Positions 1 to 33,618 of a stretch of 33,900 nucleotides of DNA are shown one piece after another. Each line of letters starts with the position of its first letter. Position 1 is the stretch's first letter. The stretch is from a virus. Both the position numbers and the translations under genes were made by a program. The notes below the pieces were generated by a model. That model worked only from the letters and a program-made list of their open reading frames with translations, ran no database searches and had not been told where the DNA came from. The stretch is taken from IMG/VR virus record IMGVR_UViG_3300031720_000011, positions 1 through 33,900 of that record. One strand, given 5' to 3'.

Positions 1-618
1 GTGGGGGTTGAGGGCCTGCCACTCGGTGATCTGCGCGGTGGTGGCCTGGGGGGCGAGGAGGTGACACGCCCACCCGACCTCGCCGGCGATCCGCGCCAAC
101 TCGGTGTAGTTCTTCCACGGGAAGGGGAAGCCGACCGAGCCGAGGACCGGCTGATCGGGGTAGGCCTTCCACCAGGTCTCCCGGCCCCAGGCGTAGTCGC
201 CCGCCGGCCAGGGCGGGACGCCCATCCGCCAGTACTCCACCCGCCCTGGGAGATCCTCCGCCGGCTCATGGATGATCATGGCGTCGGCGGCGGCGGCGAT
301 CCCCTGACACTGCTCAGAATTAGGTACTCCGGTGTCGTGGTAGACGACCACCACTGGCACGCCCAGCGTCTGCTTGACCGCCGTGATCGCCCCCGGCGTC
401 CACTGGCTGTGGAGCGCCGCCTGGTAGTTCAGCACCACCAGATCGACCGCGGTCTGGGCGGGTGCCTCCCGCCGGCCGAGGATCGCCTGGGGGTGGAGAT
501 CGCTCACGATCTCTACCGCGATCGAGGGATCCGCCTGCTGCAGCGCCTCGACCAGCAGGGCCGAGTGCTCCGCGATCCCGCAGGCGATCCCCCACGTCGT
601 GACCAGGGCGACTCTCAC
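1..618 (-). CDS. Glycosyltransferase, GT-B-like (3' end outside window)
   Basis: The frame is open from a GTG at 618 to the window edge, giving 206 residues of N-terminal sequence. The start VRVALVTTWGIACGIAEHS is typical of the first beta strand and glycine loop of GT-B glycosyltransferases, which transfer a sugar from a nucleotide-sugar donor. Further on come strand-like stretches such as DLVVLNY and VPVVVVYHDTG and a GFPFPWKNYTELAR segment, where the donor-binding domain would begin. The GTG overlaps the stop of the upstream gene (GTGA at 615-618). It is the most distal visible gene of the leftward glycan cassette. The short stretch near 310-335 (GGA GTA CCT AAT TCT) uses lower-GC codons than its surroundings. 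The acceptor cannot be deduced and the catalytic C-terminal half is not visible. Confidence 0.72.
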   Translation of the reverse strand, partial: MRVALVTTWGIACGIAEHSALLVEALQQADPSIAVEIVSDLHPQAILGRREAPAQTAVDLVVLNYQAALHSQWTPGAITAVKQTLGVPVVVVYHDTGVPNSEQCQGIAAAADAMIIHEPAEDLPGRVEYWRMGVPPWPAGDYAWGRETWWKAYPDQPVLGSVGFPFPWKNYTELARIAGEVGWACHLLAPQATTAQITEWQALNPH

Positions 619-989
619 GCCTCGATCTCCGCGATCGCCTCGATCGCCGCCTGCGGCGCCGGCACCGCCCGCACCCGCCCGAACCGCCGCGTGGCCGCCC
701 GCCGCGCCGCGCCCCGGTTGGCGTAGCTCGGGCTCCAGGCGGTGGGATCGTCGGCCAGCCGGAAGCGGATCCGCTTGCTCTGGGTCTTGGCGTAGACCAC
801 CGGCACCACCGTCGGGGCGCCCTTGCCCTTCGTGGTGAGGCTCGTGCCGGGGCGGGTCACCGGCCCGGCGCCACTGGACCGCGTCGCCGTCTGGCGCCGC
901 GTCTCTGTCCGCGCCCGCGCCCGCTTCTTCGCCGCCCCTCGCTTCGCCGCCTTCCGCACTGTCCGCTTCGCCCGCTGCTTCGTGGCCAT
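615..989 (-). CDS. Small highly basic Lys/Arg/Ala-rich protein
   Basis: 124 residues. Residues 1 to about 45 are nearly all Lys, Arg, Ala and Thr (MATKQRAKRTVRKAAKRG and on), like a histone-tail or nucleoid-protein extension. The C-terminal half (TVVPVVYAKTQSKRIRFRLAD, NRGAARRAATRRFGRVRAV) is less extreme and may fold. Two ATGs lie in tandem (992 and 989). AGGAG lies 6 nt before the second, the spacing used elsewhere in this window, so 989 is chosen; it forms a TGATG overlap with the preceding stop. Nucleic-acid binding is an inference from charge alone; I do not recognise a family. It sits between a DUF6165-like gene and a glycosyltransferase, so a role with the glycan genes is also possible. 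Confidence 0.7.
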   Translation of the reverse strand: MATKQRAKRTVRKAAKRGAAKKRARARTETRRQTATRSSGAGPVTRPGTSLTTKGKGAPTVVPVVYAKTQSKRIRFRLADDPTAWSPSYANRGAARRAATRRFGRVRAVPAPQAAIEAIAEIEA

Positions 990-1432
990 CATCGGCTCCT
1001 CTCGTCGGCCAGGACCTTCTCCTGGCTCACGACATCGCCGGCCTCGCGGTTGATCGCCTGCACCAGCGCCGCGCGCCGGTCGTTCCAATCCTGCAGGCGG
1101 AAGGCGAGGATCCGGATCGCGTCGTTCTCGGCGGCAGTATACACGGATCCGGATCCCAGGGATCCGGATCCCCCTCCGCCGCCGCCCGCCCGCCGCCAGT
1201 CCCGCAGATCGTCCTCCCCGTGCCAGATCAGCGCGTTCACCGCCCCCAGCTCCAGCAGGGCGTCGAACCAGGCGGCGTTCAGCGTGCGCGCGTGGATCTT
1301 GGTCAGGAGGAGGGATCGCTCGCTCTCGAAGTGATCCACGTCGCGGCCGGCGTCCTGGCCGGCGAGGATCTTGAGGGCGAGAATGGTCAGGCGATCAGAG
1401 ATCTCGCCCGTCCCCGGGTTGACCAGTTTCAT
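989..1432 (-). CDS. DUF6165-like protein of glycan gene clusters
   Basis: 147 residues. The pattern of the DUF6165 family is recognisable: an N-terminal ISDRLTILALKI block, a central LNAAWFDALLELGAVN with ALIWHGEDDLRDW, and a C-terminal DWNDRRAALVQAINREAGD. Family members are small helical proteins of unknown biochemical role, often encoded beside glycosyltransferases in surface-glycan loci, which fits the neighbours here. Between the central and C-terminal blocks lies a glycine/serine-rich linker (residues about 87-101) encoded by repeated GGATCC units (1145-1171). ATG at 1432 overlaps the upstream stop as ATGA. The family assignment is from memory of the motif pattern. Confidence 0.72.
   Translation of the reverse strand: MKLVNPGTGEISDRLTILALKILAGQDAGRDVDHFESERSLLLTKIHARTLNAAWFDALLELGAVNALIWHGEDDLRDWRRAGGGGGGSGSLGSGSVYTAAENDAIRILAFRLQDWNDRRAALVQAINREAGDVVSQEKVLADERSR
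1145..1171. repeat. Tandem palindromic GGATCC repeat inside a coding region
   Basis: GGATCCGGATCC occurs twice, separated by CAG (1145-1156 and 1160-1171). Each unit is its own reverse complement, so the two copies form a perfect 12-bp stem with a 3-nt loop. It encodes the Gly/Ser linker of the DUF6165-like protein and is an expandable microsatellite in frame. Confidence 0.9.
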
Positions 1433-1590
1433 CGGCCGCGCACCTGATTCGCCCAGGCGATCGTCGACAGCAGCGCCCACGTCTCTCGGCAGATCGGACA
1501 GTCGCAGGTCTGGCCATCTTTGAGCAGGGCGTGACTGTCGAGGTACCGCCAGAGCAGGATCACCAACTGGACCTTCGGGGCGGCGCTCAT
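1429..1590 (-). CDS. 53-residue protein with a CxCPxC knuckle
   Basis: Starts MSAAPKVQLVILLWRYLD and carries CDCPICRETW followed by a hydrophobic ALLSTIAWANQV. The three closely spaced cysteines (CxCxxC) suggest a metal knuckle, but only three are present, so a zinc site would need a fourth ligand (an upstream His is available in DSHALL) or dimerisation. ATG at 1590 overlaps the FkbM stop (ATGA), and its stop overlaps the DUF6165-like start. It belongs to the leftward operon. The family is unknown to me. Confidence 0.65.
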   Translation of the reverse strand: MSAAPKVQLVILLWRYLDSHALLKDGQTCDCPICRETWALLSTIAWANQVRGR

Positions 1591-2303
1591 CGCCGTGGCC
1601 GGGCCAGGAAGTTGTGGAGGTGACTGGGCCACTCATGGATCTCGTAGTCGGCGCCCGTCAGGAAGCGGCAGACCTCGGCGAACGGGTACGGGTGCGCGTG
1701 CGACAACTCCTCTTCCCACTCGAAGACGATCGCCGGGTGATGCTTGTGAATGGTGTCCCCGAGCCCGGCGATCGCCGCACCATCGCACCCCTGGGCGTCG
1801 ATCTTGATCAGGCTCACGTGGTCGCCGTAGAGGTACTGGTAGTCGTCGAGCGGGGCGGCCGGGATCGGGCGATCCGGCACCTCATGGTCCTGCAGCCGCC
1901 GGAGCGCGGCGCCGCCCGAGTCTCTCGGCTCGTAGGGCACGGTCCAGATCAGATCCGTCTTCCGGTCGTAGGCCGCCACCGGCAGCACCACGACCGTCTC
2001 GGCGCAGGTCGGCTTGTTGAGATCCAGGTTCGCCTTCAGGTAGCGGATCATCTCCGGCGCCGGCTCCACGGCGATCACGCGCCAGGCGCCCTGCCCGGCC
2101 AGCCAGATCGCCCAGTCGCCGAGGTGCGCGCCGACGTCCAGGATGGTCACCTGATCCTCGCCGAGCCGCCCGTACTCGCGGGCGATCACCTGGAGGAAGC
2201 CGGGCCCGTCCCAGACGGTGCCGGCCTTCACGGTGCCGCCGATGCACTCATCGGGGTTGACGAGGAAGGATCCGAAGGGGGTCTGGACGACTTCGTCGCT
2301 CAT
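1587..2303 (-). CDS. FkbM family SAM-dependent methyltransferase
   Basis: 238 residues with a complete class I methyltransferase fold: motif I ILDVGAHLGDWAIWLA, an acidic strand-2 end VIAVEPAPEMIRYLKANL, and the FkbM signature SLIKIDAQGCDGAAIAGL, followed by IVFEWEEEL. FkbM enzymes O-methylate sugars and related hydroxyls and are common in polysaccharide and phage glycan loci. Here it lies directly between a GT9-like gene and a DUF6165-like gene, so methyl capping of a phage-encoded or host glycan is the likeliest use. ATG at 2303 overlaps the upstream stop (ATGA). Length is normal for a minimal FkbM protein. The substrate is not readable from sequence. Confidence 0.88.
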   Translation of the reverse strand: MSDEVVQTPFGSFLVNPDECIGGTVKAGTVWDGPGFLQVIAREYGRLGEDQVTILDVGAHLGDWAIWLAGQGAWRVIAVEPAPEMIRYLKANLDLNKPTCAETVVVLPVAAYDRKTDLIWTVPYEPRDSGGAALRRLQDHEVPDRPIPAAPLDDYQYLYGDHVSLIKIDAQGCDGAAIAGLGDTIHKHHPAIVFEWEEELSHAHPYPFAEVCRFLTGADYEIHEWPSHLHNFLARPRR

Positions 2304-2482
2304 TGCGGATCCTTCGGGGGCGCCGTCAAGATCGTCGCCAGCCACGTGCACAGGTCCGGGTTGAGTTGGTGGAGGAAGGCGACGGCGTCGGCGATGTCGG
2401 CCTCACTGTGCTCCCGGAGATCGGCGGCGAGGGCGCCGAGATCCGTGATGAGTTCGCGCGCGGGGCGGCGTCGGCGGTTCAT
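2300..2482 (-). CDS. 60-residue helical protein, unknown
   Basis: Begins MNRRRRPARELITDLGALAA and continues as amphipathic helices (LREHSEADIADAVAFLHQL, LCTWLATILT). It has no signal peptide or cysteine pair. It sits between GT9-like and FkbM genes with 4-base ATGA overlaps at both ends. The tight coupling and codon use support a real gene; function unknown. Confidence 0.6.
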   Translation of the reverse strand: MNRRRRPARELITDLGALAADLREHSEADIADAVAFLHQLNPDLCTWLATILTAPPKDPQ

Positions 2483-3285
2483 ACCGGCTCCCGTGTGAGG
2501 ATCCGGGTCAGCGTCTCCCGGCAATGCCGACTGTCGAAGGTCGGCCGCCCATCCGTCCCCTTCACCACGGTCACCGGCGGCCCGTCCATCCCGAGCGGGT
2601 AGAAGATCGGGTTCCACCGGGCCTCCATCGGCTCGACGACGACCACCGGGATCCCCAGCCCCACCGCCAGCACATGGAGCGCCGAGCAGTCGGTGAGGAG
2701 GGCGCGCGACCGGCTGATCCAGGCCGCCGCCTCCAGCCACGAGGTCGGCAGATACCCGCCCTCGGTCACCCAGCGGGATCCCGGCGGCACGATCCCGATC
2801 ACATTCACATAGGCGGCGTCGGGCTCGTCGGGCGCGAGCAGCTCGGTCAGGCCGTACTTCAGCTCGAAGTAGCAGTCGGTCCAGCCGAAGACGAGATCGC
2901 GGGGCTCCTCCCAGGGCGGCGGCGTGATCCACGGCCGGGTGAGATCCAGGCCGACGTCCATTGCGTACTCCGCCTGCAGAGTGCGCTGGGTCTCCTCGGG
3001 CAGCGGCAGCTCCGGCCATCGGCGGTACCCGAGGTGGTAGACCGCCTCGTAGGGGCCGTACTGAGTCGTCGGTTGCCACCCCATCCCGATACCCCAGGTC
3101 TCGTCCGCCCGCACCGCGGCGAGGTAGGGCTGGATCTGCAGCAACGGCACGAGCCCCGCGAACTCGCCGCAGATCAGGAGATCCACCGCCTCCCCTCGGA
3201 CCTCGGCGAGGGCGCGGATGGTCGGGAGGGCCCAGAGCAGATCTCCGTGCCTGCCCGGGAAGGTGACCAGGGTGCGGGCGATCAT
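2479..3285 (-). CDS. GT9-like (heptosyltransferase-type) glycosyltransferase
   Basis: 268 residues. The N-terminus has the classic GT9 loop PGRHGDLLWALPTIRAL (residues about 10-26). The C-terminal donor domain has LLTDCSALHVLAVGLGIPVVVVEP, matching the S/T-D-S-GxxHLAxALGxPVV signature of ADP-heptose:LPS heptosyltransferases. It is shorter than the bacterial enzymes (about 320-350), with a compact middle. This family transfers heptose or related sugars onto LPS-type acceptors or, in autotransporter heptosyltransferases, onto proteins. In a phage cassette it could build a virion glycan or alter the host surface. ATG at 3285 overlaps the preceding stop (ATGA). The fold call is firm; substrate unknown. 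Confidence 0.8.
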   Translation of the reverse strand: MIARTLVTFPGRHGDLLWALPTIRALAEVRGEAVDLLICGEFAGLVPLLQIQPYLAAVRADETWGIGMGWQPTTQYGPYEAVYHLGYRRWPELPLPEETQRTLQAEYAMDVGLDLTRPWITPPPWEEPRDLVFGWTDCYFELKYGLTELLAPDEPDAAYVNVIGIVPPGSRWVTEGGYLPTSWLEAAAWISRSRALLTDCSALHVLAVGLGIPVVVVEPMEARWNPIFYPLGMDGPPVTVVKGTDGRPTFDSRHCRETLTRILTREPV

Positions 3286-3548
3286 CGGCCGGCGACCTCG
3301 ACGCCGGCGAGGGCCAGGCTGCCCGTCCGTCCCGGCGTGTAGACCAGCTCCACGCTCACCTTCTCAGTGAGCATCAGCGGCCATTCCTCCGCCGCCGACT
3401 GGGGGGTGATCCGGGTCGGTGTCGGATCTACCACCAACTGTGTGTAGTCGAGATCGAAGCTGGCGGTGTCCTGCCCGTAGCGGCGGATCCGCACGGGGGC
3501 CTCCGGGGGGAGGCCCTGCAGCACGGTGATCAGATCTTTGGTCGTCAC
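3282..3548 (-). CDS. 88-residue conserved-type phage protein
   Basis: Starts MTTKDLITVLQGLPPEAPVRI, a common opening of small phage and bacterial proteins of unknown role (helix, LPP turn, beta strand). Several beta strands follow (SVELVYTPGRTGSLALAG). It has ATGA overlaps with the HNH gene upstream and the GT9-like gene downstream. No metal ligands or membrane segment seen. Function unknown. Confidence 0.65.
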   Translation of the reverse strand: MTTKDLITVLQGLPPEAPVRIRRYGQDTASFDLDYTQLVVDPTPTRITPQSAAEEWPLMLTEKVSVELVYTPGRTGSLALAGVEVAGR

Positions 3549-4057
3549 GTCAGCTCCTTCAGCAGTTGATGCAGTCCATGACGTCGGTGCGTCACCCGAT
3601 ACCGTTTCCAGTCCTGTCGTCGACAGATCCGACAGTACCGCCCACGCTTCTGCGCGCCCGTATTCTCTGGTGTGAACGGATGCCCCCGTTTACAGGACGT
3701 CTTCCGAGCATTGATCCCGGCCCACCCCGATCCTCGAAGGATGTTCTCCCGCATCGTCGTAGCCACCAAGTGCGTAGGATTGACGCATGCAGGCTCCGAC
3801 ACCGGCTCACAGCGATGATCGATGGTGAGTCCGTCCGGGATCGGTCCTTTGTATGTGGCATAGGCAGCCCGGTGTGCGAGCACCTCCGTTCCTCTGAGCC
3901 AGAAGCGCCCGTACCCGCCACGCCCATGCGAGGTGGCCGAGGTCGTCGCGCCCTGCCAGAGCCAACACCCCTCCACAGACACGACGACCTTCGAGAGGAA
4001 GCGATCAAGATCCGCCCCACTCAGAGCCAGGCTTTCAATCGGGGATCGGCGGCGCAT
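3545..4057 (-). CDS. HNH homing-type endonuclease (free-standing)
   Basis: 170 residues. An N-terminal FLSKVVVS-GCWLWQGATTS block and GYGRFWLRGTEVLAHRAAY lead to the HNH core IPDGLTIDHRCEPVSEPACVNPTHL with the usual following TMRENILRGS. A C-terminal zinc-like region CKRGHPFTPENT and CRICRRQ follows. Such free-standing HNH nucleases cut a conserved gene and spread by repair-driven copying. Its start lies inside the end of the helicase gene (37-base overlap). Codon usage is visibly less GC-rich at third positions than in the glycan genes, and the last 20-30 codons of the helicase share that style. No good ribosome binding site is seen before 4057, so translation may depend on helicase translation. 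Start position moderately certain. Confidence 0.85.
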   Translation of the reverse strand: MRRRSPIESLALSGADLDRFLSKVVVSVEGCWLWQGATTSATSHGRGGYGRFWLRGTEVLAHRAAYATYKGPIPDGLTIDHRCEPVSEPACVNPTHLVATTMRENILRGSGWAGINARKTSCKRGHPFTPENTGAQKRGRYCRICRRQDWKRYRVTHRRHGLHQLLKELT

Positions 4058-6102
4058 CGTTCAATCAGGGCGGCTTCGGATCCAACGAGGCGCAATCCTT
4101 CAAAGGTTCGCGCCCGTGACAATGCTACGTACACCATGCCGTAGGTCTTGAAGAACGCATCCCGGATGTTGACCTGCACGGCGTCCAGACTGAGCCCCTG
4201 GCTCTTGTGCACGGTGCTCGCGTACCCCACCCGCAGCGGCAGGTACTCCACCCAGCCGGTGATCTCGAACTTGCCGTTCTCGGTGATCTTCCCCTCCTGC
4301 CCCAGATCCCGCAGCTCCCGCCGCCGGGCCGCGTCGCACGGCACGAGGACCTCGCGCCGGCAGTAGGCGACCTCGACTTCCTCGCCGTTCCGCTTGAGCC
4401 GCACCACACAGGAGTAGGCGGTCGCCTCCACCACCTCGCCGAGATCCCCGTTCACATACAGGAAGGGCTGCGGTGGCGGCCCCTCCACCCGCTGGTTGGC
4501 CAGGATCATCACCAGGGCGCCGATCTTCAGGTGCAGCCGGATCGGGATCCCCCAGGTGTTGGGATCCTTCTTCGGGTTGCCCCACTCGCTGCGCTGATCG
4601 CCCTCACGCCGACTCTCGAAGTAGAGATCCCGCCCCGGGAGGCGCCCGAGCCGGATCCAGTTGTAGCGATCCACCTGCTGGTTCTTCGCGAAGAGGGTCG
4701 GCCCCTCGAAGCGATCATCCGTGTCAGGGTAGATCTTCCCCCGCATCGCCGCCAGGACCGTCCGCCCATCCCCGACCCGGGCGGCCCGCAGCAGCTCGAT
4801 GAAGGGGTGGTCGGACTGCCGGCGGATCTCGGTGAGGATCCGGGTATGGCCCTCCTCGGCAAACCGCGGCCACTCCGGGCTCTCCCAGGCAAACGGCCCA
4901 TTGACCGGTGGCAGCTGGGCGAAGTCGCCGACCAGCGTCAGCCCCATCGCCGGTGGCTCCGCCTCGTCGTCCTCGGTCCACTTCCCCAGGACGTAGCCCC
5001 GGCCGTTCACCTCCTCGATCCCCTTCACGAGGTAGGTGAGCGCGTCGCCTTCGAGCATCGACACCTCGTCGAGGACCAGCCGCGTCACGCCGGCCCGCCA
5101 CAGCCGGCCCAGGCGCGCCGTGAGGTAGCCATTCGTATAGCTCTCCTGCAGGCTCTTGGTGTCGAAGTAGCCCAACGTCGCATTGATCGTCGTGCCCCCC
5201 AGGTTGAGCGCCGCGATCCCGGTGGTCGCCACCAGCATCAGCCCCGGCCGCTGCTCCTTCCACGCCTGCACCGCGAAGGTCTTGCCGCAGCCGGCGGGCC
5301 CCGCGAGGTAGGTGAAGGGCGGGACGGGATCCGGCCAGAGATCCACCTGGACGACTGGGGCGGCCGGCTCGGTCGTCTCGGGCGCCAGCAGGGCGACCGC
5401 GTCGGCCTTCAGCGTGCCCAGATCCGCCGTCGCCAGATCCCAGACGGGGCCATCCGGGAAGGGGAGCGGCGGCTCGATCTCTCGGGCTAGGGCTCCTCCT
5501 CCTCCGCCGCCGTGCCCTGATCCAGGTGTTCGATCTCGTCCGCCATCTGCCGGATCCGCTCCTGCAGCTCGACCCGCATGATCTCCAGCCCCGCCAGGCA
5601 CTCCGCCAGGCTCACCGGCGCCCGCTCCGCCGCCTCGATGGCTCGGCGCTGGATCTCCACCCAGTCTTCCTCGGTCACTGGACCCTCCGTCTATCGCATG
5701 TTCGGGCTGCGACCGCCCACACTGCACGCACGGGCCGCCCAGCACGCCGTCGGGCCGGGTGTAGCCGTCGCACGGGGTCAGTGGCAGGATCAAGGTCCCC
5801 CCACATCCGCCATGCCGCACCCCGACCAGATCCGCCGGCGCCGGCGCCCCACACCGATCGCACACGGCGGTCCCGAGGGCTGCGGGCGTGGGCGCCGGGG
5901 CGGGAGGCTGGCCCTGATCCTGCTCTGTCACAGTCGACGAGGCCACCGACGAGGCTCCTCGCTCCCGTCTGTTTCGCTGGCTCTCTGCACCCCGAGGTAC
6001 AGTACGTACTCCGGTCGTACGCGGCTCCTCGCGTGGCGGCCCCATCGGCGGGAGCCCGTCGTGCACATCGAGCGCGACCTTCGGGACGGTGACAGGGCTC
6101 AT
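4021..6102 (-). CDS. PIF1/RecD2-like SF1B DNA helicase (open frame fused to an N-terminal zinc-knuckle region)
   Basis: The helicase part (residues about 230-693) has Walker A AGPAGCGKTF (about 267-276), Walker B LVLDEVSML, motif III LVGDFAQLPPVNG, motif V YASTVHKSQGLSLDAVQV and motif VI YVALSRAR: a complete PIF1/Dda-type 5'-3' helicase for replication or recombination. The frame stays open upstream to an ATG at 6102 that overlaps the previous stop (ATGA). That segment encodes a cysteine-rich domain (CDRCGAP, HGGCGG, CDGYTRP, CVQCGRSQPEHA). Between the two, residues about 140-205 are low-complexity Gly/Arg/Pro and overlie a more protein-like 63-codon frame (5487-5678). The likeliest reading is a separate zinc-knuckle gene, then a helicase gene beginning near 5678 and interrupted by a one-base shift near 5489. 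The only in-frame GTG close to the core is at 5346, without a ribosome site. Codon usage changes from about 4125 to the end, next to the HNH gene. Confidence 0.85.
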   Translation of the reverse strand: MSPVTVPKVALDVHDGLPPMGPPREEPRTTGVRTVPRGAESQRNRRERGASSVASSTVTEQDQGQPPAPAPTPAALGTAVCDRCGAPAPADLVGVRHGGCGGTLILPLTPCDGYTRPDGVLGGPCVQCGRSQPEHAIDGGSSDRGRLGGDPAPSHRGGGAGAGEPGGVPGGAGDHAGRAAGADPADGGRDRTPGSGHGGGGGGALAREIEPPLPFPDGPVWDLATADLGTLKADAVALLAPETTEPAAPVVQVDLWPDPVPPFTYLAGPAGCGKTFAVQAWKEQRPGLMLVATTGIAALNLGGTTINATLGYFDTKSLQESYTNGYLTARLGRLWRAGVTRLVLDEVSMLEGDALTYLVKGIEEVNGRGYVLGKWTEDDEAEPPAMGLTLVGDFAQLPPVNGPFAWESPEWPRFAEEGHTRILTEIRRQSDHPFIELLRAARVGDGRTVLAAMRGKIYPDTDDRFEGPTLFAKNQQVDRYNWIRLGRLPGRDLYFESRREGDQRSEWGNPKKDPNTWGIPIRLHLKIGALVMILANQRVEGPPPQPFLYVNGDLGEVVEATAYSCVVRLKRNGEEVEVAYCRREVLVPCDAARRRELRDLGQEGKITENGKFEITGWVEYLPLRVGYASTVHKSQGLSLDAVQVNIRDAFFKTYGMVYVALSRARTFEGLRLVGSEAALIERCAADPRLKAWL
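5487..5678 (-). CDS. 63-residue acidic helical protein or displaced helicase N-terminus
   Basis: GTG at 5678 is preceded at 5 nt by GGAGGG. The product starts VTEEDWVEIQRRAIEAAE and continues as a clean amphipathic helix (LAGLEIMRVELQERIRQM) before an acidic end (AAEEEEP, stop TAG at 5489-5487). The frame differs from the long helicase frame that overlies it, and its amino-acid composition is far more natural. One added base in the GAG/CCC tract just before its stop would join it in frame to the helicase, giving an N-terminal helical extension. Either it is a short gene or the true helicase start; I favour the latter slightly. Confidence 0.6.
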   Translation of the reverse strand: MTEEDWVEIQRRAIEAAERAPVSLAECLAGLEIMRVELQERIRQMADEIEHLDQGTAAEEEEP

Positions 6103-6959
6103 ACGCGCAACGGCAAAATGTCTCTGAAGTTCTCGTACCCGATCGCGTGCGCCTGCTTCCAGAAGTCCTCATCCCCGCCGGCGGTCTGGCGCTTCGCCCA
6201 GGCCTGATAGCCCGGATCCCCCACCGCGGTCTGGCCGCCCCAGTGCTTGGCGCGCAGCGGCAGGTACCACGTTTCCCACCCATGCCGCGCCGCGATCGCG
6301 CCCAGCAGCCCGTCGTAGAGATGGTGGACGATCCCCAGGTCGTCCAGGATGGCCCAGGGCCGGCGCTCGACGACCTCGACGTCCAGGCCGGCTAGATCTG
6401 CCCCGATGCGCCTGGCGCCCGCCCAGAAGGCCCTGCGCCCCACCTGGCTGAACCCATCCAGACACGCCACCGGCTCCGCCAACAAACTCCGGACCCCATG
6501 CACCTCCGCGTCGACCAGGTTGCTCCGAAACCCGTGCCGCGCCAGGCTCATCGGGTCGTACGGCTTGCGGTACATATCCTCGCTGCCGAGCCCGATCGCG
6601 CCGCCGAACCCGAGCAGGCCACACGCCGGCGCCCGCGCGAAGTGTCGTAGGACCTTCTGGTCCCAGCCGTCCTCCTGGATCTCGAAGTCGTCATGGAGGC
6701 AGGCGATCGCGTCGAAGCGCCCATGCAGCGCGGCGTCGACCCCGACCCGATACGCCCGCACGCTCCCGAGATACTCCTCGTGATGGACCCAGGCGACCAC
6801 GGCGCCGTCGATCTCGACCGCCTCCCGCTCGGGGCGCGGGCCACCGTTCAGGATCAGGAAGATCGGCAGCGGGTGCTCGGTCGCGTGTCGGATCCAGCTC
6901 TCCACACATTTCCCGGCCCGCGCGAGGCTGGTCGACGCGGTTACCACGGCGAGGCTCAC
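6099..6959 (-). CDS. GT-A-fold glycosyltransferase (family 2-like)
   Basis: 286 residues, starting VSLAVVTASTSLARAGKCVESW like the first strand and helix of GT-A enzymes. A metal/nucleotide motif IACLHDDFEIQEDGWD stands where the DxD would be, and CLDGFSQVGRRAF and VHHLYDGLLGAIA resemble the acceptor-side and late histidine motifs of glycosyltransferase 2-like phage proteins. It transfers a sugar from a nucleotide-sugar donor; the acceptor is unknown. The GTG start at 6959 overlaps the upstream stop (GTGA), and its own stop overlaps the ATG at 6102. The DxD has the variant form DDF. No membrane segment, so cytoplasmic. Confidence 0.75.
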   Translation of the reverse strand: MSLAVVTASTSLARAGKCVESWIRHATEHPLPIFLILNGGPRPEREAVEIDGAVVAWVHHEEYLGSVRAYRVGVDAALHGRFDAIACLHDDFEIQEDGWDQKVLRHFARAPACGLLGFGGAIGLGSEDMYRKPYDPMSLARHGFRSNLVDAEVHGVRSLLAEPVACLDGFSQVGRRAFWAGARRIGADLAGLDVEVVERRPWAILDDLGIVHHLYDGLLGAIAARHGWETWYLPLRAKHWGGQTAVGDPGYQAWAKRQTAGGDEDFWKQAHAIGYENFRDILPLRV

Positions 6960-7183
6960 GACTCCCTCCGCGCGTTGGCATCGCGCTGCCGCTGCATCTC
7001 GACCGTCTTGGCGTACTGCGCCCAGTAGTCGGGGAAGGCGGCCTTGAGCCGCGCCTGATTCGCGGCGTCGGCGAAGGGCCAGAGGCGCGCCAGTCCCTTG
7101 ACGAAGGATCCGCCGTAGCGCGCCATGGCGTCGAGGATCTCCTCGTCGGTGACAGGCGCGGTGTCCTCGATCTCCTCAGCCAT
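6956..7183 (-). CDS. 75-residue conserved-type phage protein
   Basis: Begins MAEEIEDTAPVTDEEILDAM, then ARYGGSFVKGLARLWPFAD and QARLKAAFPDYWAQYAK, a helical pattern (an FVxxLAxL helix followed by a KAAFPDYWxxYA end) that recurs among tailed phages without known role. Two ATGs are possible (7189 and 7183); GGGAGGG lies directly against the first and 6 nt before the second, so 7183 is chosen. Confidence 0.72.
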   Translation of the reverse strand: MAEEIEDTAPVTDEEILDAMARYGGSFVKGLARLWPFADAANQARLKAAFPDYWAQYAKTVEMQRQRDANARRES

Positions 7184-7196
7184 TTGCATCCCTCCC

Positions 7197-7463
7197 TCAG
7201 TTGCTCGTCGGATCGCCCGGCGCCCGGCTCCGGATCGCATACCGATCCACCACCTGGCTCTCGCATTTGGTCAGCTCGGGGTACTGGTCGATCGCCTCGA
7301 TGATCACATCCCGCACCGTCCGCAGGTGATGCCCGGCGAGCCGCAGCTCCACCACGCCGCAGATCGGACAGCCGATGTCGATCTCCACCACGAGGAAGGG
7401 ATCCCCCTCGATCGGCTCGACCCGGATGATCCGGCTCGCGATCTGGACCTGCACCAGCCCCAT
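7197..7463 (-). CDS. 88-residue protein with CPxC knuckle
   Basis: Starts MGLVQVQIASRIIRVEPIEG. Residues about 29-33 are GCPIC, and a later Cys lies in ELTKCESQ, with His-His in LAGHHLRTVRDV. This is compatible with a small zinc-ribbon or knuckle protein with an amphipathic helix (VRDVIIEAIDQYPEL). ATG at 7463 overlaps the GT4 stop by one base (TGATG), indicating translational coupling. Function unknown. Confidence 0.65.
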   Translation of the reverse strand: MGLVQVQIASRIIRVEPIEGDPFLVVEIDIGCPICGVVELRLAGHHLRTVRDVIIEAIDQYPELTKCESQVVDRYAIRSRAPGDPTSN

Positions 7464-8614
7464 CAGAGCCCCGCCTTGATCCACGCGCGCCACCGCGGCC
7501 AGAGCGCCGCCCAGTCCAGGTGGGCGACCGCCCCGCGGCAGTAGGCCGCCGCGACCTCGGCCCCCACATCGATCTGCCACGTCAGGGCGCGCTCGATGGC
7601 GTTCGCCGCGTCCTCGGCGCGAAACACCGGCCGCTGCGTCCCGTAGATCCCCTCCAGCCGTAGCTCGCGCACTGGGATCCGCCACTCGCGCTTCGGGATC
7701 AACTCGCGCCCGCCGCCGTAGTCCCCGTGCACGACCGGCGTCCCGGCGGCCAAGCTCTCGACAATCGGGTAGCCGAACCCCTCACCCAGCCCGGGCGCGA
7801 TCGTCACCGCACAGGCGCCGTAGAGGGCGCGCAGCTCCAGGTCTGTGTAGGTCTTGGTGCTCACGGTGACCCGCTTCTGGATCCCGCAATCCTCGACCAA
7901 CTGCGGAATGCTCCACGCCTTGACCAGCACATCGGTGTGCAGCCAGCCGTAGATCGGCACGCCGCGATCCTGCAGCACCTTCAGCGTCTGGCCGTAGAGC
8001 CCGAGATCCTTCCGGGGCTGGTTGGTCGCCACACAGCCCACCACGAGGTCCCGCTGTCGGCAGTGCGGCCCCAGCTCGTGCCGGGCCCAGGCGGGATCCG
8101 CCTCGCCCTCCCCGTTCCGGGTGATCCCGTGCGGCAGGTACGGCACCGCCCCCGCCCGCAGCGGCTTCAGCACCTGGCTCGCCCACCGCCCGTACGCAAT
8201 CACCCGATCCGCCCGCTCGACCGCTTCCCCCGCCGGCCCGCCGATCCCGCCCGGCCAGTTGGTCCCGTCGACCGCGGTGTACGCCCAGATCTGCACCGGC
8301 AGATCGATCCCCCGGTAGTACGCCAGCCGCCCCGGATCCCAGATCAGCCAGAGCACCCCGGGCCGATCCCCGAAGTGACTCCGCCAGATCGCCTCGACAT
8401 AGCTCGCCCCCCAGTCCTCGCCGCGGTGCAGGCGGTCGTCCAGCGGGTAGTGGGGCCAGCGCCGCCACACGGGCGGCACTGGGCCGCCCACGCTCGCCAG
8501 CTCCACCGGCAGATCGCTCTCGACGATCTGGGTGCCCAGATCGCGGAGGATGCGACCCAGCCCGGTGGGTTCCTGCGGGCCGTCGCCCACGAGCATGAGC
8601 GGGGTGCGGATCAT
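7463..8614 (-). CDS. GT4-type glycosyltransferase (GT-B fold)
   Basis: 383 residues. The C-terminal donor domain is clear: VVGCVATNQPRKDLGLYGQT (strand and conserved Arg/Lys), TDLELRALYGACAVTIAP, and the E-x7-E signature in GEGFGYPIVESLAAGTPVV, followed by a GGGREL loop that contacts the nucleotide. The N-terminal half (MLVGDGPQEPTGLGRILRDL) has the glycine-rich acceptor-domain opening. GT4 enzymes are retaining transferases using NDP or GDP sugars. It is the promoter-proximal member of the glycan cassette. ATG at 8614 follows the next upstream stop by 16 nt, with only a weak ribosome site (GGATC). Substrate unknown. Confidence 0.88.
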   Translation of the reverse strand: MIRTPLMLVGDGPQEPTGLGRILRDLGTQIVESDLPVELASVGGPVPPVWRRWPHYPLDDRLHRGEDWGASYVEAIWRSHFGDRPGVLWLIWDPGRLAYYRGIDLPVQIWAYTAVDGTNWPGGIGGPAGEAVERADRVIAYGRWASQVLKPLRAGAVPYLPHGITRNGEGEADPAWARHELGPHCRQRDLVVGCVATNQPRKDLGLYGQTLKVLQDRGVPIYGWLHTDVLVKAWSIPQLVEDCGIQKRVTVSTKTYTDLELRALYGACAVTIAPGLGEGFGYPIVESLAAGTPVVHGDYGGGRELIPKREWRIPVRELRLEGIYGTQRPVFRAEDAANAIERALTWQIDVGAEVAAAYCRGAVAHLDWAALWPRWRAWIKAGL

Positions 8615-26995: not shown

Positions 26996-29278
26996 ATCTA
27001 TCACCCCGACACGATCGCCGCCCGCGAGGCCGAGATCCTGCGCACCCCGGCCCTGCGTGGGCTCTTCCCGCACGGGATCCCCACCTACTCGGTCGAGGAG
27101 TCGGATGCGCATGTCGCCGCCCTCACCGCCGCGCGCCAGCCCGACGGATCCTATCGCCGGGCCCTGACCCGGGAGGAGTCGCGCTTCCTCACGGCGACCC
27201 CCTTCCGCTGCGCGATCGACTTCCCCTACTTCGTCACCCGCTTCGTCTACGTGGACGACCAGGGGCACGGCCTCCGGCGCCTCAACCCGCTCAGCGAGTC
27301 CCAGGCCTTCGTCCTCGGCAAGATCGCCGATCTGGAACGCCGCCGCTGGTCCACCCATCCCGACGGGATCCTCGTCAACATCCTCAAGGCGCGGCAGCTC
27401 TACGTCTCGACCCTCAGCGAGACCATGGTCGCGCACCGGATCCTCTTCCAGCCGCACACGCGCGCGCTGGTCGGCGCCGACGTCGAGGAGCAGGCGGGGT
27501 ACCTCTTCCGGATGGTGGTCCGCCTCTACGACGCCCTCCCGTGGTTCCTGCAGCCGACGCCCCGCTTCCCCTTTGTGAAGAACCGGGAGTTCGGCCTGGG
27601 CAATGCCTCCTTCCTCAAGACTGCCTGGGGCAAGTCCACCCGCGGCGCCCTCCAGGCGGTCTCGGGCCAGGAAGGATCCAAGGGCGCGATCGGCCGCGGC
27701 CAGACCTACGGCTGCGTCCACCTCTCCGAACTCCCCACCTGGGACAACCCGGATCAGATCGACGCCGCGCTCCTCCCGGCGATCCCGGTCCACCCCGACA
27801 CCTTCTGTGTGTTTGAGGCGACCGCCGAGCACGCCGGCGACTGGTGGCACCGCCACTGGCTGGCCTCGGGCGAGGGCGTCGGCCGCTTCACCAACGTCTT
27901 CGTCCCCGTGTACGCCGAGCCGACCAAGTACCGCCTCCCGGGGCCGCTCGACTGGAGCCCGTCGGCCTCGACCCTGGCCTGGGCGGCGAAATGCGAGCGC
28001 ACCGCCCCGCAGTGGTACGGCCGCCCGGTGACCCTCGCCCGCGATCAGCTCTACTGGTATGAAACGACTCGCGCCTTCTACGAGAAGAAGAATGACCTGG
28101 GGACCTTCCTCAAGGAGTACTGCGCCGACGATCAGGAGTGCTTCCAGTACGCCGGCACCTCGATCTTCAGCTTCAACCAACTAGACCAGATCGATCAGGC
28201 CGGCTCCCGCCGCCGCCTCCTCGACGTCTGGCGCGTGGAGCCCGCCCGCGAGATCGCCGCCCTCCGGCGCCTCCCGCCCGACGGGCCGCCCCTCGACCCG
28301 CCGCCGGCCACCCGCCGCCCCGATCCGCCGCTCGCGCCCCGGATCCCGGGGGCGATCTCCTCGGTCGCCGCGCTGGCCTACCCAGTGCCACCCGGCTACG
28401 GCTTCAGCCGCCTCACGCCGCCGGAACTGGCCGACCTCCCCTCCCTGCGCCACTCGGTCCTGGCGATCTGGGAGTACCCGCGCGCCCGGGGCCGCCGCCG
28501 CTACGTCCTCGCGGTCGACGTGAGCGAAGGCCTCGGCCTCGACTACTCGGTCGTCGACGTGATCCGCCTGCCGACGATCGAGGAGCCGGCCGAGCAAGTC
28601 GCCCAGTACATCTCGAACGTCGTCGACACCAAGCAGCTCGCCTTCATCGTGGACGCCATCGGCCGCCTCTACGCCGACGCCGACCAAGTCGAGGCCCTCG
28701 CGGCCATCGAGACCAACAACGTCGGCCTGGCCACCCAGGACACGCTCCAACTCCATCTGGGCTACACGCAGTTCTACGTCTGGGAGTACGCCGACGCCGC
28801 CACCCCCGAGCGCCGCTACTCGACCAAGATCGGCTGGGTCACCACCGCGCGCACGCGTCCGATCCTCCTCACGGCCTTCCGCGACGCGATCACGACCGTC
28901 GACCCGATCACCGGACAGCCCGACTTCATCCTCAACTCCCCGGTGACCCGCGCCGAGCTGCGCCACTTCATCACCCCGGACGTCCTCGCCAACGCCCAGG
29001 CGGCGCGCGGCCAGCACGACGACTGCGTCCTGGCGGCGGCGATCGGCTACTATGTGGCCTGGCGGCTGGCCGGCGGCGAAGCCGAGCCGATCGCCGAGCA
29101 GCGGCGACGCAAGGCGGCCCTGGATCGCCAGGCGCCCGTGGGCCTCCCGCGGCGGGACTACCGCAACAGCGCGCTCACCGCCGAGGAGATCGCCGCGCAC
29201 GTGGAGGAGGACGATGAGTTCCAAGACGCCCCCGACAGCCTCCACTTCGCCTGGCCCGCCCGCAACCGCGACGACTAA
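26996..29278 (+). CDS. terL: Terminase large subunit, apparently initiated at AUC
   Basis: 760 residues if started at ATC 26996. The ATPase half has LVNILKARQLYVSTLSETM (a variant Walker A, KARQLxxST, residues about 131-139), a Walker B-like YGCVHLSELPTWDN and a CVFEATAEHAGDWWH coupling motif. The nuclease half has YVLAVDVSEGLGLDYSVVDV, LAFIVDAIGRLYADADQV, ETNNVGLA and GQHDDCVLAAAIGYYV, giving the acidic RNase H-like centre. It powers DNA packaging at the portal. The first GTG (27251) would remove 85 residues that belong to the family's N-terminus (ILRTPALRGLFPHGIPTYS, LTREESRFLTATPF). Upstream there is no ATG, GTG or TTG in frame, but AGGAGGG (26984-26990) lies 5 nt before ATC TAT CAC CCC. 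A base error in the start codon is the main alternative. Confidence 0.9.
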   Translation: MYHPDTIAAREAEILRTPALRGLFPHGIPTYSVEESDAHVAALTAARQPDGSYRRALTREESRFLTATPFRCAIDFPYFVTRFVYVDDQGHGLRRLNPLSESQAFVLGKIADLERRRWSTHPDGILVNILKARQLYVSTLSETMVAHRILFQPHTRALVGADVEEQAGYLFRMVVRLYDALPWFLQPTPRFPFVKNREFGLGNASFLKTAWGKSTRGALQAVSGQEGSKGAIGRGQTYGCVHLSELPTWDNPDQIDAALLPAIPVHPDTFCVFEATAEHAGDWWHRHWLASGEGVGRFTNVFVPVYAEPTKYRLPGPLDWSPSASTLAWAAKCERTAPQWYGRPVTLARDQLYWYETTRAFYEKKNDLGTFLKEYCADDQECFQYAGTSIFSFNQLDQIDQAGSRRRLLDVWRVEPAREIAALRRLPPDGPPLDPPPATRRPDPPLAPRIPGAISSVAALAYPVPPGYGFSRLTPPELADLPSLRHSVLAIWEYPRARGRRRYVLAVDVSEGLGLDYSVVDVIRLPTIEEPAEQVAQYISNVVDTKQLAFIVDAIGRLYADADQVEALAAIETNNVGLATQDTLQLHLGYTQFYVWEYADAATPERRYSTKIGWVTTARTRPILLTAFRDAITTVDPITGQPDFILNSPVTRAELRHFITPDVLANAQAARGQHDDCVLAAAIGYYVAWRLAGGEAEPIAEQRRRKAALDRQAPVGLPRRDYRNSALTAEEIAAHVEEDDEFQDAPDSLHFAWPARNRDD

Positions 29279-31434: not shown

Positions 31435-33618
31435 ATGGCTGATTTCAGCCCCTCCGGCATTCAGGATCTCCCGGCGACCTCCGCCGAGTCCCTCGAACGG
31501 GGCGACCTCCGGGTCCTCGGCTGGCTCAAGGAGTGGCTGGTCGAAGGGGATCTCATCAACCGCTCCGATCCCTCCTACGACGGGATCGCCCGCGCCTACG
31601 CCTACGTGGTGGGCGAGCAGCGCTCCGACGAGCGGCTCAAGCTCAAGTACCTCCCCCAGATCACCATCAATGAAACTCGCAAGGCGATCCAGGCCCACGT
31701 CTCGGCGATCACCGACTTCGAGCCGGTCGTTGGCTGGAAGGGCCCGCCCGAAGCCCAGCTCCAGGCCGACCTCCTCAACCAGTACCTCCTCGCCGAGTGG
31801 ATCACCCTGATGCTGGATCTGGATCTCGGCGATTGTGTGAAGTACTCGCTCGCCGCCGGCACCGGCGACCTCGTCGTGGACTGGGATCCGCACATCCCGC
31901 TGGGCGGCGGGCATCAGTTCTCCGCCCGCGACCCGCGCGACACGCTCCCGCTGCGGCCCTCCTATGGCCGCTCGATCCAGGCCTGGGAGGGGGTGTGTCT
32001 GCGCGAGGAGCACGCGGTGAACGTCCTCAAGGGGATGTATCCGACCCAGGCGCACCTGTTCCGCGCCGCCTCGGACACCTCCCTGGGCCAGATCGCGGGC
32101 CGCTTCCGCATGGGGCTCAGCCGCCTCCTCAGCCCGGCCGACCCCCTCGACTCGATCGCCGGCGGGGCGCCCGCCGCTACCGCCCGCCGCCTGCGCCGCG
32201 GCTCGGTCGCCCTCTACCGGGCCTACTTCCACGACCGCACGCGCAACCTGACCGCCCGCGCGATCCCGATGGGCACCCCCGGCGCCAACTGGGCCTACGT
32301 CGTCCAGCCCGGGCAGCCGCTCTACCCGCGGGGCCGCCTGGTCGTCGCCACCGACGACGCCATCATCTACGACGGGCCCAACACCTACTTCCACGGCCGC
32401 TACCCGGTCTGCCGCCTCAAGCTCTGGTCGGTCCCGTGGCAGTTCCTGGGCGTCCCGCTCTTCAACGACCTCCTCCCGGTGCAGGACGCCATCAATGACA
32501 CGGTGCATGACATCCGCCTCGGCATCCAGCAGTGGGTGAACCCCGACATCACCTACAACCGCAACGCGGTCTCCGAGTCGACCATGCGCCTGATGGATCC
32601 GCGCCGCCCGGGCAAGCGGGTGAAGGTCACCTCCGGCTTCGGCGACCCGTGGACCAAGGAGCAGGGCCCCAACCCGCAGATCCTCGGGATGGCGATCGAT
32701 CTGTGGCAGAAGCTCACCCTGAAATTTGAGTCGCTCTCGGGCACTGCCAACCTCCAGGCGCTCCTCCAACTCCGGCAGATGCCCTCGGCCGACACCATCG
32801 AGAAGTACTACAACGCCCTCACGCCCGAGATCCGCGCCGAGGCCCGCACGGTCGAGGCCTTCCTGCGGGATCTCGCGGATCTGCTCAAGGTGAACTACTT
32901 CCAGTTCCTGAGCCACGCCAAGCGGGTGCAGATCCTCGGCATCGGCGGCGAGGCGCTGGCCGACTTCGACTTCGATCCCAACACGCTGGTCCCGGGGCTC
33001 AAGCCCGGCGACCCGAAGTACACCCCCGAGCTGGACGTCGACACCACGACCCGCGACCAGCGCGCCCTCTTCATCAGCAACCAACTGCAGTTCATCGTGG
33101 CGCCCAACTCGGTCCTCGCCATCGACGCCACCGAGCGCAAGATGATGCGCCTGCAGCTCGCCCGGATGGGCTACTACGACTTCTGGTCGCTGCACGAAAC
33201 CCTGCAGACCCCCAACGTGGGCGCCCCGCCGGCGGTCCCGCTCCCGCCGATCGAGCCGCCGCCGGCCGACCTTCTCCAGCGGATGGTCGCCCAGGTGGTC
33301 GCCCCCGGTGGGCAGCCCGCGCCGCCTGACGCCCTCCCGAAGCTGATCCAGGCGATCCAGGCCGGGGTCGCGCCGCCGCCCCAGTACACCGATCCGGACT
33401 CAGGGCGCACCTTCACGATCGACCCGACCTCGGGGAAGATCCTGGAGCTGCGGATCCCGACCACGATCACCGAGCGGCTCCAGGCGCAGCAGCTGCTGGG
33501 GATCGGGCAGACCGTCTCGCCAGCTGGGAGAAAAGCATCAGGACAAGCGCCCCCTCAACAGGAGACGAAACAAGACGAGCCTGGAGGCAGGCCGACAATC
33601 ACTGAGAGTAAGAAATAG
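31435..33618 (+). CDS. Phage portal protein
   Basis: 727 residues. Portal features include an N-terminal region with LKYLPQITINETRKAIQAHV, SAITDFEPVVGWKGPPEAQL, a stem/wing part with VKYSLAAGTGDLVVDWDP, PVCRLKLWSVPWQFLGVPLF then NDLLPVQDAINDTVHDIRLG, and a helical C-terminal portion (SGTANLQALLQLRQMPSADT, EKYYNALTPEIRAEARTVEA). It forms the dodecameric ring at one vertex through which the terminase pumps DNA. From about 33520 the codons change abruptly to A/T-ending forms (AGA AAA GCA TCA GGA CAA) up to the stop, and an oppositely oriented HNH gene starts 1 nt beyond. That tail may therefore be a replaced or co-converted end. The length is at the upper end of usual portal sizes. Confidence 0.9.
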   Translation: MADFSPSGIQDLPATSAESLERGDLRVLGWLKEWLVEGDLINRSDPSYDGIARAYAYVVGEQRSDERLKLKYLPQITINETRKAIQAHVSAITDFEPVVGWKGPPEAQLQADLLNQYLLAEWITLMLDLDLGDCVKYSLAAGTGDLVVDWDPHIPLGGGHQFSARDPRDTLPLRPSYGRSIQAWEGVCLREEHAVNVLKGMYPTQAHLFRAASDTSLGQIAGRFRMGLSRLLSPADPLDSIAGGAPAATARRLRRGSVALYRAYFHDRTRNLTARAIPMGTPGANWAYVVQPGQPLYPRGRLVVATDDAIIYDGPNTYFHGRYPVCRLKLWSVPWQFLGVPLFNDLLPVQDAINDTVHDIRLGIQQWVNPDITYNRNAVSESTMRLMDPRRPGKRVKVTSGFGDPWTKEQGPNPQILGMAIDLWQKLTLKFESLSGTANLQALLQLRQMPSADTIEKYYNALTPEIRAEARTVEAFLRDLADLLKVNYFQFLSHAKRVQILGIGGEALADFDFDPNTLVPGLKPGDPKYTPELDVDTTTRDQRALFISNQLQFIVAPNSVLAIDATERKMMRLQLARMGYYDFWSLHETLQTPNVGAPPAVPLPPIEPPPADLLQRMVAQVVAPGGQPAPPDALPKLIQAIQAGVAPPPQYTDPDSGRTFTIDPTSGKILELRIPTTITERLQAQQLLGIGQTVSPAGRKASGQAPPQQETKQDEPGGRPTITESKK

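Follow-up and report, generated by a model that had tools for sequence, protein, structure and literature searches.

A block of five glycosyltransferases, a sugar C-methyltransferase and a DUF4254-like protein kept or lost together in a lineage of uncultured phages

The IMG/VR record IMGVR_UViG_3300031720_000011 is a phage fragment of 33,900 bases with a G+C content of 70%, and the whole of it was analyzed here (the window). Positions 1 to 8614 carry, in leftward orientation, a glycan cassette that is cut by the contig end and comprises four glycosyltransferases (GTs; one of GT-B type is truncated), an FkbM-family methyltransferase and a DUF4254-like protein. Comparison within the lineage showed that five glycosyltransferases, one sugar C-methyltransferase and one DUF4254-like protein constitute a single gene-content unit. 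Judged from its enzymes, this cassette is most likely a self-contained soluble pathway for one methylated oligosaccharide of up to five sugars. The two members that lie outside the window, a GT2-type transferase and the C-methyltransferase, are expected just past its left edge.

The cassette across the lineage

Searches with window proteins recovered five related contigs of 52–71 kb, the gene order of which is largely that of the window, and a profile search with the GT-A protein added eleven further contigs, two of them (L041 and L042) near-duplicates. The preliminary description of this DNA had suggested looking for the same gene order in other phages; it recurs in 16 viral contigs as RecB-like, zinc protein, Sak-type ATPase, conserved 221-aa protein, GT4, CPxC, GT-A, (helicase), GT9, (FkbM), DUF4254-like, GT-B, methyltransferase, C-methyltransferase, GT2 and polymerase, where the RecB-like and Sak-type functions were read from motifs, without family matches. 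Beyond the position of the window's left edge, the relatives thus hold a fifth transferase (GT2-type) and a sugar C-methyltransferase with all three TylCIII/NovU-type domains (PF08421, PF13489 and PF08484), along with a class I methyltransferase and, in some, a second FkbM gene.

The lineage is large: genes for its portal-like protein occur in at least 93 IMG/VR contigs (L048–L127), and its large members measure about 67–76 kb. Sixteen large contigs from this 93-contig portal-profile set were checked for the GT-A gene, which was present in 4 and absent from 12, some of the latter being partial. We then compared seven cassette-bearing contigs (69–72 kb) with seven cassette-less contigs (67–72 kb) of the same lineage, all classed as linear with completeness not given. 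The gene-content test was blind and covered the 57 protein families present in at least 5 of the 14 contigs, a family being scored as enriched if it occurred in at least 4 genomes more in the cassette-bearing group. GT4, GT-A, GT9, GT-B, GT2 and the C-methyltransferase were each found in 7/7 genomes with and 0/7 without the cassette, and the DUF4254-like protein in 6/7 versus 0/7. Only these seven families passed.

In a six-gene tree the cassette-less members fall at two places; this requires at least two losses (or gains) of the entire block. The cassette tree is mostly congruent with the core tree, so the cassette is inherited with the phage, which favors loss over gain. Some cassette-less genomes still carry methyltransferase and CPxC genes, and these leftovers likewise fit loss. 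Pairwise ratios of nonsynonymous to synonymous substitution rates (dN/dS) of about 0.28–0.60 for the cassette's own genes (window versus closest relative) reveal purifying selection, which together with conserved catalytic residues indicates that the predicted enzymes are working ones. It might be argued that the genes are independent cargo gathered in a permissive spot and form no single pathway, since FkbM, other methyltransferases, the HNH gene and small open reading frames (ORFs) vary from genome to genome. We consider this highly improbable, because the seven families kept a common presence/absence pattern and a common order across two independent events, with purifying selection.

Enzymes in the window and their surroundings

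The window's part of the cassette consists of the following genes:

7463–8614, (-): GT4-family glycosyltransferase, GT-B fold, cassette core; Pfam PF00534 (Glycos_transf_1) 2e-10, phrog_2170 2.4e-21
6099–6959, (-): GT-A-fold glycosyltransferase, cassette core; Pfam Glyco_tranf_2_5 0.006, Foldseek GT-A folds, invariant HDD
2479–3285, (-): GT9-like (heptosyltransferase-type) glycosyltransferase, cassette core; AlphaFold model and Foldseek, invariant GD
1587–2303, (-): FkbM-family methyltransferase, optional cassette part; PF05050 9e-13, TIGR01444 3.4e-24
989–1432, (-): DUF4254-like protein, cassette core; PF14063 in 13/13 members
1–618, (-): GT-B glycosyltransferase, N-terminal part, cut by the contig end, cassette core; homologues of 306–348 aa in relatives

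All four transferases had been named in the preliminary description. The GT4 protein belongs to its family by a PF00534 match above the cut-off and by an EX7E-type motif whose residues E278 and E286 are invariant across six members. For the GT-A protein the Pfam match is weak, but the predicted structure ranks GT-A/GT2-type folds first: the top Foldseek matches are GT-A/GT2-type and GT27-type folds (E down to 6e-6, N-terminal 120 residues) for a model of moderate confidence (pLDDT 68), and the HDD, an Asp metal motif, is the invariant one, which places the protein in the GT-A fold. The AlphaFold model of the GT9-like protein (pLDDT 83) is closest to 3tov, a GT9 structure (E 2.2e-6), and also matches WaaC (1.1e-5) and heptosyltransferase II, with moderate TM-scores of about 0.5–0.6 and with UDP-GlcNAc 2-epimerases, which share the fold, scoring almost equally; its invariant GD is that of the GT9 N-terminal motif. 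Pfam and NCBIfam scans, GT9 Pfam model included, returned no match for this protein, and we therefore label it GT9-like rather than GT9: the proposed fold held, a sequence family match did not follow. The partial GT-B gene is real and continues beyond the window, and the resemblance of a full-length relative to GT4/GT-B is only weak (Glyco_trans_1_4, 0.025 in G004). Sequence-profile searches of the PDB with the GT9-like, GT-A and GT-B proteins gave nothing meaningful. Altogether, the GT folds and catalytic motifs are intact, and the catalytic residues are conserved among relatives.

The methyltransferase gene had been assigned correctly to FkbM (49.1 bits against a cut-off of 22.7 for PF05050, 85.9 against 37.7 for TIGR01444) and occurs in some, not all, cassette-bearing members. 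Its neighbor at 989–1432 had been described as DUF6165-like. DUF4254 fits far better: PF14063 matches 13/13 members of the family, the best at 8.9e-8 and the window's own copy at just 0.37, versus 1/13 members at E 0.014 for DUF6165 (PF19662), an identity that we rejected. A literature search on DUF4254 turned up a single paper that mentions it in passing.

Adjoining genes of the cassette mostly overlap by 1 or 4 bases, and positions 1–8614 therefore likely constitute one leftward operon, as proposed earlier; scans for sigma-70-like promoters and terminators gave nothing informative. Other features of this operon and of the window are:

4021 to ~6102 (start uncertain), (-): PIF1/Dda-type helicase with N-terminal Cys-rich extension; PF05970 1.5e-7, phrog_325 (Dda-like helicase) 9.4e-53
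5487–5678, (-): overlapping ORF, 63 aa, in another frame inside the helicase's low-complexity linker
3545–4057, (-): HNH endonuclease; PF13392 1.4e-8, phrog_826 3.9e-47
7197–7463, (-): small CPxC protein, 88 aa; often accompanies the cassette, also in 3 cassette-less genomes
6956–7183, (-): small protein, 75 aa; homologues in G001 and G003
3282–3548, (-): small protein, 88 aa; homologue in G003 only
2300–2482, (-): small protein, 60 aa; no homologue found in relatives
1429–1590, (-): small CPxC protein, 53 aa; no homologue found in relatives
615–989, (-): basic low-complexity protein, 124 aa; Lys/Arg-rich ORF at the same position in G003
27251–29278, rightward: terminase large subunit, virion block
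31435–33618, rightward: portal-like protein, virion block; portal inferred from size and position, no family match

The helicase and both CPxC proteins are as previously described. The helicase lies within the operon, yet outside the glycan unit. Because all seven cassette-less genomes have it, we count it as a core replication gene with the cassette sitting around it; it is also absent from some cassette-bearing genomes, and we rejected it as a member of the pathway. Its N-terminal extension resembles that of G003, and the good-looking ORF in its linker is either an overlapping gene or an assembly frameshift. The HNH gene, which the preliminary description had missed, sits between the GT9-like gene and the helicase and overlaps the end of the latter. 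Its codon pattern is unlike that of its neighbors and the window's own codon model does not call it; this gene is probably a mobile insertion. On a larger scale, the window consists of two facing blocks, leftward replication and recombination genes (about 1–14.5 kb) and rightward virion genes after them. The DNA polymerase A of the lineage is fused to an N-terminal uracil-DNA-glycosylase domain, an arrangement kept across its members (e.g., L024:3514-6543 in G004).

Proposed pathway and the acceptor of the glycan

A dedicated phage-encoded pathway for a methylated glycan, as envisaged in the preliminary description, has good support in that the C-methyltransferase either occurs with the glycosyltransferases or is missing along with them across the lineage. 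Within such a pathway, nucleoside diphosphate (NDP)-sugars would be added one after another, up to five of them given five transferases. No NDP-sugar biosynthesis genes were recognized, suggesting that the donors come from the host. The C-methyltransferase would C-methylate one sugar of the chain; the TylCIII/NovU-type architecture implies a branched-chain deoxysugar-type residue. In some members FkbM may O-methylate the chain as well. A heptose pathway, considered because of a "phosphoheptose isomerase" PHROG match in G003, was dismissed as this match is weak and partial (8.3e-8 over 54 residues of a 170-aa protein).

We tentatively favor a virion protein over the host envelope as the acceptor, at a probability of roughly 0.4. 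It would be glycosylated in the host cytosol ahead of assembly, changing the particle surface. This preference is based on the fit of soluble enzymes, on a precedent and on two capsid-region features that co-vary with the cassette. In a crude hydropathy scan none of the block's proteins obviously spans a membrane several times, which agrees with glycosylation in the cytosol. The precedent is that Mycobacterium phages use their own glycosyltransferases to glycosylate the virion, at capsid and tail-tube C-termini (Freeman 2023, as reported in PMC12619734). Regarding the capsid region, a TIG-domain protein near the putative major capsid gene, itself assigned by gene order and conservation without a family match, occurs in 0/9 cassette-bearing versus 5/7 cassette-less genomes. 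Conversely, the putative major capsid protein is extended at its N terminus by a hydrophobic stretch resembling a membrane helix in 6/8 cassette-bearing (L022:4365-5483 in G003 and its counterparts in G001, G002, G004, G005 and G014) versus 0/7 cassette-less genomes; in the latter and in G013 and G016 the protein begins directly with the conserved core, and in most cases a strong Shine-Dalgarno sequence is present there. Several points weigh against a virion acceptor. No acceptor was identified, and the Ser/Thr content of 15 shared virion-region proteins, tried as a sign of one, is without clear difference between the groups. Shared ancestry, with few independent events on the tree, confounds the capsid correlations, and G013 and G016 have the cassette without the extension. 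Moreover, the location of the cassette, surrounded by replication genes and on the strand opposite to that of the virion genes, would be just as suitable for host takeover. The TIG-domain proteins of the five cassette-less genomes are small, TIG/IPT-domain-like and encoded in the virion block (e.g., L139:5358-5789 in G009, L149:10829-11293 in G007); they are possibly particle decoration proteins.

A somewhat less probable but quite possible alternative is that the cassette remodels a host envelope glycan (lipopolysaccharide (LPS) core, O-antigen or exopolysaccharide) during infection and thereby blocks superinfection or hides a receptor. GT9 enzymes typically act on the LPS core, and WaaC and heptosyltransferase II are among the structural matches of the GT9-like protein; envelope polysaccharide clusters commonly include methyltransferases of such kinds, and linkage to the replication block suggests early expression. 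However, crude hydropathy gave no indication of a flippase, a polymerase or a multi-spanning protein of the Gtr type within the block. Surface conversion is classically useful in lysogeny, and of lysogeny there is no sign, since GT-A and portal scans of 84,980 prokaryote genomes gave no prophage-like copy, bacterial homologue or host; the GT-A scan, which finds only relatives sharing short conserved stretches, had no match at all. Placement of the glycan on phage DNA, protecting it against restriction and CRISPR, appears unlikely. In its favor, the cassette is physically linked to polymerase and helicase, and 6-base palindromes are somewhat less avoided with it (observed/expected 0.86–1.01, G001 0.71, versus 0.75–0.86; p = 0.026 uncorrected), a signal that G001 contradicts and that ancestry and host confound. 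The linkage, taken earlier as a hint of DNA decoration, loses its force because helicase, Sak-type ATPase, RecB-like nuclease and polymerase remain when the cassette is gone. Known cytosine DNA glycans need a hydroxylated base made by TET/JBP or thymidylate-synthase-type enzymes (PMC13216743, PMC13390438), whereas TET/JBP (PF12851) and the thymidylate-synthase family (PF00303) matched 0/6 records (G000–G005), leading us to discard hypermodification by TET/JBP or a hydroxymethylase; T4-type and TET-associated DNA glycosyltransferases were likewise unmatched in Pfam scans. Still more doubtful is that phage DNA bears a C-methylated chain of up to five sugars, starting from base modification by an unrecognized enzyme. 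If true, it would be a DNA glycan longer than any known to us, made without TET or thymidylate-synthase-type chemistry.

Relation to known systems and meaning

Phage glycosyltransferase cassettes are already known; for the GT-A, GT9-like and DUF4254-like proteins of this one, a search of 50,697 phage records gave no match. These records held no close isolate for the proteins tested, and only six other records matched the C-methyltransferase. We noticed that LR756501.1, a 735 kb uncultured phage, carries relatives of the C-methyltransferase (34%) and of FkbM (25%) within about 18 kb (~304–322 kb), perhaps another glycan cassette.

With Mycobacterium phage virion glycosylation the cassette shares phage-encoded glycosyltransferases, the particle being here the favored, putative target. 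Annotated relatives of those phages have about two transferases (e.g., PMC11256854, PMC10955285), whereas five transferases of several families, a C-methyltransferase and a DUF4254-like protein come together here, in an unrelated lineage. Phage DNA glycosylation (T-even alpha/beta-GT, TET-associated GTs and Mosigvirus arabinosyltransferases) resembles it in the linkage of glycosyltransferases to replication genes, but here no base-hydroxylating enzyme and no match to those GT families was found, and five transferases exceed the one to three sugars described on DNA. The serotype-converting gtrA-gtrB-gtrX cassettes of temperate phages are similar as phage genes able to alter host surface sugars. 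They differ in gene set and in the lysogeny for which we found no sign; the Gtr families had no match among the scanned proteins, and neither a GtrA flippase nor a multi-spanning GtrX-type protein was seen, as judged by crude hydropathy and not by a dedicated membrane predictor. Finally, the relatives' cassette protein has the full three-domain architecture of TylCIII/NovU-type sugar C-methyltransferases; here it is encoded in a phage, beside glycosyltransferases, with no recognized deoxysugar-making enzymes.

Should the virion carry the glycan, the cassette would encode one of the most elaborate phage pathways described for protein glycosylation, including a branched-chain (C-methylated) sugar. 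The gene-content test provides a clean way of separating a pathway from its genomic surroundings. The cassette belongs to a lineage of widespread, uncultured phages that keep or lose a seven-gene set as one block, and the natural with/without pairs differing by this block make the purpose of a phage glycan directly testable.

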